From an uncultured Pontibacter sp. (GTDB lineage Bacteria > Bacteroidota > Bacteroidia > Cytophagales > Hymenobacteraceae), in contig NZ_CANLZM010000017.1 of NCBI RefSeq assembly GCF_947495565.1, positions 1 through 64,000 of the forward strand: DNA of 64,000 nt. Direction: 5' to 3'. Positions 1 through 2,491 of the stretch are shown here, piece by piece. Within the stretch, counting starts at the first letter, position 1, and each line of letters starts with the position of its first letter. The notes under the pieces were generated by a model. The model had not been told where the DNA came from, made no database searches, and was given only the letters and a program-made list of their open reading frames with translations. A program made the position numbers and the translations under genes.

Positions 1-7
1 AAACATC

Positions 8-71
8 GCTAAATTAGACCTAGGACCTGAAGAGTTAGGCTTCACAATGGCCTGAGAAATAAACGTTAGTC
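8..71 (+). repeat. Candidate attC-like recombination site (upstream, weak)
   Basis: The 10-mer TAAACGTTAG at 60-69 is identical to the right end of the clearer site at 446-512, exactly 441 bp downstream, and marks the left boundary of cassette 1 at G65/TT. GCTAA at 8-12 could pair with TTAG at the right end, and AGGACC/GGCCT could form an inner stem. The stem is poor, and the same bases are open as the C-terminal end of an ORF (frame 2, stop at 53-55), so the left half may be fortuitous. Confidence 0.35.
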
Positions 72-88
72 AGGATTTGAGTTAAGAA

Positions 89-412
89 ATGGAACACCCA
101 GAAGAGTATGAATTAATGGCTGTTTTTGAGAGTGAGCCTGATACGCTTGATTCTGTAGCCGATGTTCCGTTTTATTATAACCAATCAACTTATAAGTATA
201 GCAATCCCGAAAACGAAGTAATTGCTTTCTCTATGACACCGTCTTATAATGAAGTTTCATTTAAAGTTTCAAAGGGCAACTTTGAGATTGCTAACATGAA
301 TCTGCAAAACATTTCTTCCTTGAGTGTGCTTAGTGACAATAAAGCAGAAAAAAGAATAATGTTAACAGGCAGAAATTATATACTCAAAGTACAGTTGAAA
401 CCAAGGTTTTAA
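89..412 (+). CDS. Hypothetical protein, cassette 1
   Basis: This 107-residue soluble acidic protein matches no family I recognise. It has no signal peptide, membrane segment or obvious catalytic motif. The N-terminus is rich in Glu, and the remainder alternates polar and hydrophobic residues as in a beta-rich fold. The start follows GAGTTAAGAA with little Shine-Dalgarno character, as usual in this phylum. The gene begins 23 bp after the putative cassette boundary and ends 34 bp before the attC-like hairpin, which is the packing of an integron cassette gene. The local base composition is AT-richer than that of the downstream housekeeping genes. Confidence 0.6.
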   Translation: MEHPEEYELMAVFESEPDTLDSVADVPFYYNQSTYKYSNPENEVIAFSMTPSYNEVSFKVSKGNFEIANMNLQNISSLSVLSDNKAEKRIMLTGRNYILKVQLKPRF

Positions 413-445
413 ATTGAATTTACGGAGGATATAGTATAAAAAACA

Positions 446-512
446 GGCTAAAACACGGCACAGGCTGCATGTTCGGCTGACGCCTCCACATAGCCTGTAC
501 TAAACGTTAGCT
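446..512 (+). repeat. attC-like site A
   Basis: This is a 67-nt imperfect palindrome. ACAGGCT (460-466) pairs with AGCCTGT (492-498), then ATGT with ACAT, leaving a two-base GC bulge that resembles the extrahelical bases of attC. The outer boxes GGCTAA (446-451) and TTAGC (507-511) can pair. The loop contains CGGCTGACGC, which recurs exactly in site B, as does CCACAT. Overall order and length fit the attC R''-L''-loop-L'-R' pattern. The core GTTAGCT departs from GTTRRRY at one base. Confidence 0.6.
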
Positions 513-570
513 GGTAATAAAATTTTAGAAGCTCCAAATAAAGAATTAGAAAAAGTAGGTACTAAACAAG

Positions 571-906
571 ATGAACAAAATGCCCCAAGTACTGAGAGAG
601 AAAACAAATTGGCTACACATGACATTAGCCTTAGTTTTAACTCTTGCTTTTCTGATTGGGTTATGGTTCATGTATTTCATTTTAGCTTGGGGCCACTTCG
701 GAGAAGGAGCAAACAGCAAATTTTACTCCCAATGGACAGGGAAAGGTATAATTACAGCAGCATCTATGTCAATGGAGTTAATCCTATGTCTTTTTTATAA
801 AAACAGTATAAATGCTAACAGTCAGAGTGAAGCAAAATCTTACTTGATAAGCGGCATAACTGTGTTTGTAGTCTTTGTTATTGCAATAATTTTCCTTGGA
901 CATTAA
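571..906 (+). CDS. Small three-helix membrane protein, cassette 2
   Basis: This 111-residue protein of unknown function has three predicted membrane helices (about residues 18-40, 60-77 and 90-109) joined by short polar loops. No family is recognised. It lies inside putative cassette 2 and stops 13 bp before attC-like site B. The region upstream of the ATG is also open in frame 3 from 507 to 800 and encodes a plausible hydrophilic peptide, so a different start or a frameshift cannot be excluded. After about residue 15 the hydrophobic pattern clearly supports this frame. Confidence 0.6.
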   Translation: MNKMPQVLREKTNWLHMTLALVLTLAFLIGLWFMYFILAWGHFGEGANSKFYSQWTGKGIITAASMSMELILCLFYKNSINANSQSEAKSYLISGITVFVVFVIAIIFLGH

Positions 907-919
907 GAAGAATACCCAC

Positions 920-986
920 AGCTAACAAAGCACATGAGCAAAGCTGCGGCTGACGCTTTGCCCACATTATGCACGAGACGTCAGCA
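920..986 (+). repeat. attC-like site B
   Basis: This imperfect palindrome of about 65 nt has a perfect inner stem, GCAAAGC (938-944) with GCTTTGC (955-961), flanking a loop that contains the same CGGCTGACGC as site A. The left box AGCTAAC (920-926) is the exact complement of GTTAGCT at the right end of site A. The right core GTCAGCA has diverged from GTTRRRY. It lies 13 bp after the stop codon of the cassette 2 ORF and appears to end the array. Confidence 0.6.
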
Positions 987-1054
987 ACTTTACATTAACC
1001 CAACCTAAAACCTCTAAACTGCTACGGCAATTTCTTATCCTCATACTTTAAATC

Positions 1055-2491
1055 ATGAGCCTTTCACTAGTGCAGACGCAGCTTACTAAAGAGGTGGCGC
1101 AGCTTGCTTATCAACATTTCGCTGCTTACAAAGAGCCGGCGCTGCAACAAAGGCGGTTTAAGCACCGTGATATTTTGCCGCTCCTGGAACGGCTCCGCCA
1201 CAACCCGCTTTTTGATGTACGGGTTGTTGGCAAATCCGTCGAGCAGCGCGATATATACCTGATAAAAGCGGGTACCGGAAAAACAAAGATCTTGCTTTGG
1301 TCGCAGATGCACGGTGATGAGCCTACGGCTACCATGGCCCTGTTCGACCTGTTTAACTTCCTGCAGCTGTCCGACGCCCAAGACACAGTGCGGCAGCAAA
1401 TCCTGCAACAGCTTACGCTTTACATCGTGCCCATGCTGAACCCCGACGGGGCAGAAAGGTATACCCGCCATAATGCCCTGGAAATAGACCTGAACCGCGA
1501 TGCCCTTCGGCTGCAAAGCCCGGAGGCACGCCTGCTCAAGCACCTGCGAGACACCCTGAACCCGGAGTTTGGCTTTAACCTGCACGACCAGAGCCGTTAT
1601 TATACTGTGGGCAGCACGCCAAAGCCAGCCACCATATCTTTTCTGGCTCCAGCCTTCGACCACAACCAAACCGTAAACCCTGTACGCGAACGCGCCATGC
1701 GTACTATTGTGGGTATGAACGAGGCGCTGCAGCAGCTGATTCCGGGGCACGTAGCCAAGTTTTCAGATGAGTATGAGCCAAGGGCGTTCGGCGACAATAT
1801 TCAAAAGTGGGGCACCAGCGTTATCCTGATTGAGTCTGGCGGATACCCCGAAGATCCAGAGAAACAGTATATACGCCAACTCAACTTCGCCTCCATTGTA
1901 TCGGCCCTGCACCTGATTTCGGGCAACCACTATAGCGTTTATCCATTAGAAGATTACTATAAAATACCGGAGAACAAGCGCAACCTCTACGACCTGCTGC
2001 TCCGAAACGTGCGCTATTCAAGGTATGGCCATGAAGTACTGGTGGATGTAGGAATATTCAGGGAAGAGGTAGATGCACCTCACGGCAAGGGCTTTTACCA
2101 CAACAGCCAGATAGACCAGATCGGCGACCTGAGTATCTTTCACGGGTATGAGGAGGTGGATGCAACCGGCCTTACCCTGGTGCCTGGCAAAGTGTACCAA
2201 AAGCTCTTTACAAGTATAAACGACCTTGAACCTCTAGAAATAAAGGGTCTGCTGGCACAAGGCTACACCACCGTGCAGGTAGAAAAGCTTCCGGAAAGTA
2301 TAAACCCGTTGGAGCTTCCGCTTAATATCATCAGCGCAACGAGCAGGGTAAACCATACTTTAACACTAGCCTCCGGAGCCAATTTTATGCTGCAGGATGG
2401 CACCGGAAAGTTCTGTTATGCTATTGTAAACGGCTTTGTATACGACATGCGCTCCGACTTGCCCGAGCTGTTTCATGGCTTGGTGCTATAG
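1055..2491 (+). CDS. M14 family zinc carboxypeptidase-like protein
   Basis: This is a predicted zinc metallopeptidase of the M14 (carboxypeptidase A-like) family, 478 aa. The zinc site is visible as HGDE (His86, Glu89) and His177 in NLHDQ. An Arg/Asn substrate-binding segment, NPDGAERYTR, lies at about 129-138, and a candidate general-base Glu260 sits in LIESGG. No signal peptide is seen, so a cytoplasmic role in processing peptides or amide-linked amino acids is inferred. The last 150 residues form an extra C-terminal domain of unknown role. It stands alone: the upstream neighbours are cassette ORFs and a terminator-like hairpin follows. Confidence 0.85.
   Translation: MSLSLVQTQLTKEVAQLAYQHFAAYKEPALQQRRFKHRDILPLLERLRHNPLFDVRVVGKSVEQRDIYLIKAGTGKTKILLWSQMHGDEPTATMALFDLFNFLQLSDAQDTVRQQILQQLTLYIVPMLNPDGAERYTRHNALEIDLNRDALRLQSPEARLLKHLRDTLNPEFGFNLHDQSRYYTVGSTPKPATISFLAPAFDHNQTVNPVRERAMRTIVGMNEALQQLIPGHVAKFSDEYEPRAFGDNIQKWGTSVILIESGGYPEDPEKQYIRQLNFASIVSALHLISGNHYSVYPLEDYYKIPENKRNLYDLLLRNVRYSRYGHEVLVDVGIFREEVDAPHGKGFYHNSQIDQIGDLSIFHGYEEVDATGLTLVPGKVYQKLFTSINDLEPLEIKGLLAQGYTTVQVEKLPESINPLELPLNIISATSRVNHTLTLASGANFMLQDGTGKFCYAIVNGFVYDMRSDLPELFHGLVL

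Follow-up and report, generated by a model that had tools for sequence, protein, structure and literature searches.

The closest described systems are the integrons that use the integrase IntI, such as class 1 integrons and the chromosomal integron of Vibrio cholerae. They have an attI site beside a tyrosine recombinase gene and arrays of promoter-poor, single-ORF cassettes. Their attC sites contain RYYYAAC and GTTRRRY boxes, an unpaired spacer and an apical stem; insertion takes place at G|TT, and the start of the circular cassette is complementary to its own attC. The system described here, found in an uncultured Pontibacter sp., has all these characters in common with them. It differs in the recombinase, which lacks the block of about 41 residues that contains I2/patch III, scores below the TIGR02249 cut-off and falls outside the IntI clade. 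This recombinase is also often extended at its N-terminus and is co-oriented with the array, with a divergent zinc-finger gene alongside.

According to the accessible part of PMC8138268, the insertion is essential for integron function, and the insertless members of the 'integron-like' tyrosine recombinases treated there are not tied to attC arrays. Earlier surveys list few integrons in Bacteroidetes (PMC9024848), and in the literature on Pontibacter and Hymenobacter integrons, of which our coverage was partial and included few subscription papers or preprints, we found nothing on a system with an insertless recombinase. We regard the system reported here as a genuine integron-type system. It is very likely, taking the explanation as a whole, that it is an integron-type array whose cassettes, carrying folded attC sites, are joined at attI by a recombinase devoid of the insert.

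The distal end of a chromosomal cassette array

The window, i.e., the whole stretch of DNA that was analysed (64,000 nucleotides), corresponds to bases 1-64000 of contig C17 (74,968 bases) in a draft genome of 4.52 Mb and 44 contigs. Base 1 of the contig is also base 1 of the window. The array is truncated at this point, where the assembly was probably broken because the IS110 element found there is repeated. The window opens with the distal end of a chromosomal array of integron-type cassettes and contains the following features:

1..74, + strand: right end of an IS110-family element; window 1-77 is 87% identical to the end of the IS110 transposase element of P. kalidii pls1
1-54, + strand: C-terminus of the IS110 transposase (..NIAKLDLGPEELGFTMA-stop), followed by the terminal bases ...AAATAAACGTTAGTCAGG
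75..505, + strand: cassette 1, its 5' end lost to IS110; 86% identical to L291 and 95% to the L293 stub
89..412, + strand: ORF1, 107 aa, no assigned function; in 4/201 family genomes
445..513, + strand: attC site 1; R'' GGCTAAAAC at 446-454, R' GTTAGCT at 506-512; R3 50.2 bits, E 7e-13
506..980, + strand: cassette 2, from G506|TT to G980; 89% identical DNA in L287 from exactly 506
571..906, + strand: ORF2, 111 aa, small membrane protein as predicted by eye; patchy, in 3/201 family genomes
919..987, + strand: attC site 2, the last of the array; R'' AGCTAAC at 920-926, degenerate R' GTCAGC at 980-985; R3 41.0 bits, E 5.5e-10
1055..2491, + strand: gene of an M14-type zinc carboxypeptidase (Pfam 4e-14), the chromosomal right flank

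The M14 gene is present in 32 of the 50 genomes of the genus and is a conserved chromosomal flank, not a cassette. Among 29 other loci, an attC hit was found near this gene only at L260, where it is weaker and lies on the opposite strand.

The original prediction had described two same-strand ORFs (89-412 and 571-906), each followed by a hairpin of the attC type, and both ORFs and hairpins are found at the positions that it gave. The core shared by the hairpins, CGGCTGACGC followed by CCACA within 10 nt, occurs at these two places only in the 4.5-Mb genome. A covariance-model search was made with R3. This model was trained on 24 sites taken from other loci, the two window sites being excluded; in each training site the left box reads as the reverse complement of the bases that open the first cassette of its own array. 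The only matches of R3 in the 64 kb were the two hairpins (445-513 and 919-987). The right cores had been called GTTRRRY-like, and this holds for site 1 (GTTAGCT) but not for the last site (GTCAGC). No Rfam family matches the hairpin sites of the window. A hand-written scan for AAC...GTT hairpins proved much too permissive, and covariance models were used instead.

A related model that includes both window sites (R2) was used for the genome-wide count and yielded 39 attC-type sites in this genome: 16 on contig C24, 8 on C31 and the others on C3, C13, C17 and C30. They run in one direction within each array contig (C24, C31). In the attC alignment, which includes the two window sites, the inner helix is 94.5% paired, both partners have changed in 6 of its 7 pairs, and pairing extends to the R boxes. 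The covariation score is 0.415 compared with 0.186 for shuffled alignments, and none of the 500 shuffles scored as high. Folded as single-stranded DNA, typical sites form an R stem, an unpaired spacer, a mismatched L stem and an apical stem. The bottom strand of site 1 folds with a z of -2.9; site 2 is the poorest folder, with a minimum-energy fold (z -1.3) no better than those of shuffles.

Cassette boundaries and cassette movement

The left end of cassette 2 behaves as a circularised cassette requires, since TTAGCT (507-512) is exactly complementary to AGCTAAC (920-926), as had been claimed. The comparison of strains at G506, also suggested beforehand, gave an 89%-identical copy in a genome of another genus (G024) that starts exactly at this base. 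The match of that locus (L287) to window 506-977 opens at GTTAGCTGG, and the sequence upstream of the copy, ...TATATCCAGTA, is an attI-like core and not an attC.

These observations bear on the possibility that we are dealing with fixed genes followed by transcription terminators or by repeats. The hairpins do come after ORFs, as that reading supposes, but no T run follows them, cassette 2 stands after attI in another genus with its boundary at G506, and the M14 flank of relatives lacks both the ORFs and the hairpins. Fixation of the ORFs in related genomes had been named in advance as the result that would speak against cassettes; the opposite was found, with ORF1 in only 4 and ORF2 in only 3 of 201 family genomes. 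A set of terminators behind fixed genes is thus already contradicted by the cassette comparisons, and we give it a negligible probability.

The other predicted boundary, G65, is no cassette boundary; it belongs to the right end of an IS110 element by which cassette 1 is interrupted. A transposase element of the IS110 family on plasmid pls1 of Pontibacter kalidii has a 3' end that matches window 1-77, the bases ...AAATAAACGTTAGTCAGG among them. In pls1 the same IS110 end, including GTTAGTCAGG, adjoins a cassette unrelated to cassette 1, whose start, GTTGTATGG, lies across the IS110 element and matches its own left box CCATACAAC. Homology to cassette 1 begins at base 75, and in the homologues L291 and L293 it is preceded, just upstream, by GTTGTAGC; these homologues start with GTTGTAGC and have a matching left box, GCTACAAC. 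The left box of the window, GGCTAAAAC, differs by one base from GGCTACAAC, so that the pairing of TTAGTC with GGCTAA through one G-T pair, formerly read as a second case of complementary ends, is a coincidence.

The IS1111-attC group consists of IS110 elements that insert at attC. The two arrays in which IS110-family elements stand beside attC right boxes, the window (1-74) and pls1 (L294, 4443-6074), resemble this group in having such an element in or beside attC, and they differ in that the element sits in a non-IntI system. The elements look as if they target the right boxes of attC.

Complementarity between a cassette's start and its own left box extends well beyond the window. At all four variable bases (4/4), the left box matches the start of its own cassette in 49 of 70 cassettes and the start of the next one in 6 of 70, which is what circular cassettes require. 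Across the family, the own-start test succeeded at 28 of 47 loci, with 3.6 expected; roughly half of the loci escape it, in part owing to contigs that stop early or to a longer or altered site in the first cassette.

Movement of cassettes can be followed between loci. L074 and L075 encode recombinases 99.9% identical, and their attI regions are identical for 149 bases. In one of them 4.26 kb of extra cassettes separate attI from GTTAGCAAAG, which in the other comes directly after attI; the insertion ends exactly at this sequence, and beyond it a 12-kb array, 96% identical, is common to both. L054 and L066 share a single cassette (1019 bp, identity 100%) that is located after an attC in one species and after attI in the other, and cassettes 91% identical are found at different places in L068 and L081 with GTT boundaries. 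Genome G074 has the same 3.7 kb of cassettes twice, once in each orientation (L055 and L070), which suggests that segments of its array have been duplicated and inverted.

A linked recombinase without the integron insert

The original prediction found no integrase. This is correct for the window, which starts at a contig end, but not for the genome, which encodes three related tyrosine recombinases of about 484 aa; those on C3 and C30 are intact, and that on C19 is frameshifted. Having at least two attC sites and no nearby integrase, the window taken by itself would pass for a CALIN, but its array is truncated where the contig begins. The recombinases on C3 and C30 are both candidates for the head of the C17 array.

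Downstream of each recombinase gene, on the same strand, there is a short conserved region that ends in TAGTT, after which the cassettes begin. In 47 non-identical family sequences this region, attI, is conserved up to TAGTT and then diverges immediately. The arrangement of recombinase, attI and cassettes was found at about 47 loci of Hymenobacteraceae, the named neighbours (Pontibacter, Rufibacter and Adhaeribacter) all belonging to this family. Recombinase and attC occur together in 65 of the 201 family genomes; 2 contain only the recombinase, 12 contain attC sites without a full recombinase, and 122 contain neither (Fisher p 1e-37, a value that overstates the evidence, as relatedness is ignored and genera without both dominate the negatives). 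A divergent gene of about 125 aa encoding a zinc-finger-like (treble-clef-like) protein lies by the recombinase gene at 53 of 56 family loci (e.g., L003, 78-455) and at 29 of 94 distant ones.

Some further features of these platforms were observed. On C19 (L021, 1571-3032) the frameshifted recombinase gene retains an attI-like core and cassettes, one of them with an ORF for a beta-lactamase-like serine hydrolase. One and the same DUF6252-like, lipoprotein-type cassette is the first after attI in three different platforms (L019, L020 and L075). A sequence without a clear ORF, GTTGGCCGTGATTGGG...TTTCAG..., recurs after attI or attC in L020 (1-136, on C30), L024, L034, L044, L069 and L083, often at contig ends.

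The linked recombinase had been expected to carry the integron-specific insertion, and it does not. None of the 40 family members compared has the insert with I2/patch III (about 41 residues), and all 21 IntI proteins have it; the recombinase has 24 residues where IntI4 (2a3v) has 67. The Phage_integrase domain is present, with the catalytic R, K, H, R, H and Y conserved, and the C-terminal SPLD motif of IntI1 is also found in the family recombinase. Scores fall below the curated cut-offs both with TIGR02249, the IntI model (206 and 202 bits against 265), and with NF040815 (XerA), the best NCBIfam model (210 and 214 bits against 220). In the tree, IntI is monophyletic (100/99) with the recombinase family outside that clade, and both lie apart from XerC/XerD, the family being split from the host XerC/XerD at 99/98. 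Judged by its sequence, the linked recombinase is an insertless relative of IntI and not itself an IntI.

The predicted fold is confident (mean pLDDT 89), and its core is closest to XerA and to the structure of IntI4. N-terminal to the core there are two similar beta-beta-alpha-beta-beta-alpha-beta repeats, of a kind present in many family members, which appear weakly HARP-like: HARP (PF07443) was hit in 6 of 43 members with a best score of 21 bits (E 2.5e-4; gathering score, 25 bits), and Foldseek gave no significant match for the N-terminal half, the SMARCAL1 HARP structure 4o66 reaching a probability of 0.63 and an E of 0.15.

Could the arrays have been built by an ordinary integron, with a canonical IntI acting in trans or since lost, and the neighbouring recombinase be unrelated to them? 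CALINs, groups of attC sites that lack an IntI, are a common finding (PMC9024848, PMC9668308), and other classes of the phylum often carry a canonical IntI (105/396 genomes). However, it occurs in only 2 of the 201 family genomes and in none of the genus, while attI adjoins the insertless recombinase at about 47 family loci and at most distant ones. Moreover, 65 of the 67 recombinase-bearing genomes have attC, and the insertion that distinguishes L074 from L075 took place at an attI beside an insertless recombinase. We consider an ordinary integron unlikely.

It appears less probable still that the cassettes are recombined by XerC and XerD of the host, in the manner of mobile elements that use Xer, and that the linked gene is a passenger. 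Both proteins are encoded in the genome, and the family core resembles XerA and XerD, with which it aligns without an integron insert. Nevertheless, the family differs from XerA/XerD in scoring below the cut-offs, in its linkage to attI and cassettes, and in its separation from the host XerC/XerD in the tree. Recombination falls at G|TT in a box of the RYYYAAC/GTTRRRY type, and no dif-like core came to light in an unsystematic look at the attI and attC boundaries. Many genomes have the linked recombinase in a conserved and intact form. We therefore favour the insertless recombinase, whose linkage to attI and cassettes points to it as the probable catalyst.

In the mechanism that we propose, the 3' end of each cassette carries an attC hairpin with the order RYYYAAC - L box - apical stem - L box - GTTRRRY. 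Once circularised, the cassette would fold on one strand, its own first bases pairing with the left box, and this folded single strand would be the form used by the recombinase. The cassette would then join attI at G|TT, about 150 nt downstream of the gene for the recombinase of about 484 aa and co-oriented with it, so that the last cassette to arrive would be placed first in the array. Without the I2 helix the recombinase presumably reads the folded attC otherwise, perhaps by its N-terminal HARP-like repeats, and the zinc-finger partner may also have a role.

Distribution in the phylum and meaning for the Bacteroidia

Of 396 genomes sampled from the phylum, 109 contain relatives of the recombinase according to a profile search, and relatives were also found in named Flavobacteriia, Bacteroidales, Cytophagales and others; some relatives without the N-terminal repeats may be transposon-linked (Simplicispira), so this is a count of relatives and not of integrons. 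Members elsewhere have about 370-550 aa, or about 280 aa when they lack the extension. When plasmids from outside Bacteroidota matched the recombinase, the protein was in most cases IntI1 or a recombinase linked to IS91, and these matches were set aside. At distant loci a GTT core follows the recombinase gene, and the own-start test succeeded at 34 of 62 distant Bacteroidia loci (5.5 expected). The attC sites there are longer, about 115 nt, and are supported by this test without a model.

The remark that integrons are rarely described in this phylum needs some qualification. In the phylum as a whole, IntI above the curated cut-off occurs in 105 of 396 sampled genomes, but only 1 of these belongs to Bacteroidia, and in the family there are 2 in 201. 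No IntI above the cut-off was found in this genome or in any other of the genus. The only carriers in the family are G014 and G029; the latter contains attC-type sites, and the insertless recombinase is absent from it at the threshold used.

As to origin, we lean slightly towards a class of integrons of the Bacteroidia whose recombinase never had I2 and in which another module, e.g., the tandem HARP-like repeats, would read the hairpin, either as an independent invention or as the ancestral state of IntI. Natural attC hairpins that are widespread together with a recombinase without I2 make the question of what I2 does testable. They would also give the Bacteroidia, which are nearly without IntI in our sample, a cassette reservoir of their own. 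Platforms were also observed on plasmids, namely the mobilizable plasmid 1 of Rufibacter tibetensis (L235) and P. kalidii pls1, which has tra genes (L294), and such plasmid-borne copies would be missed by searches based on IntI or reported only as CALINs.
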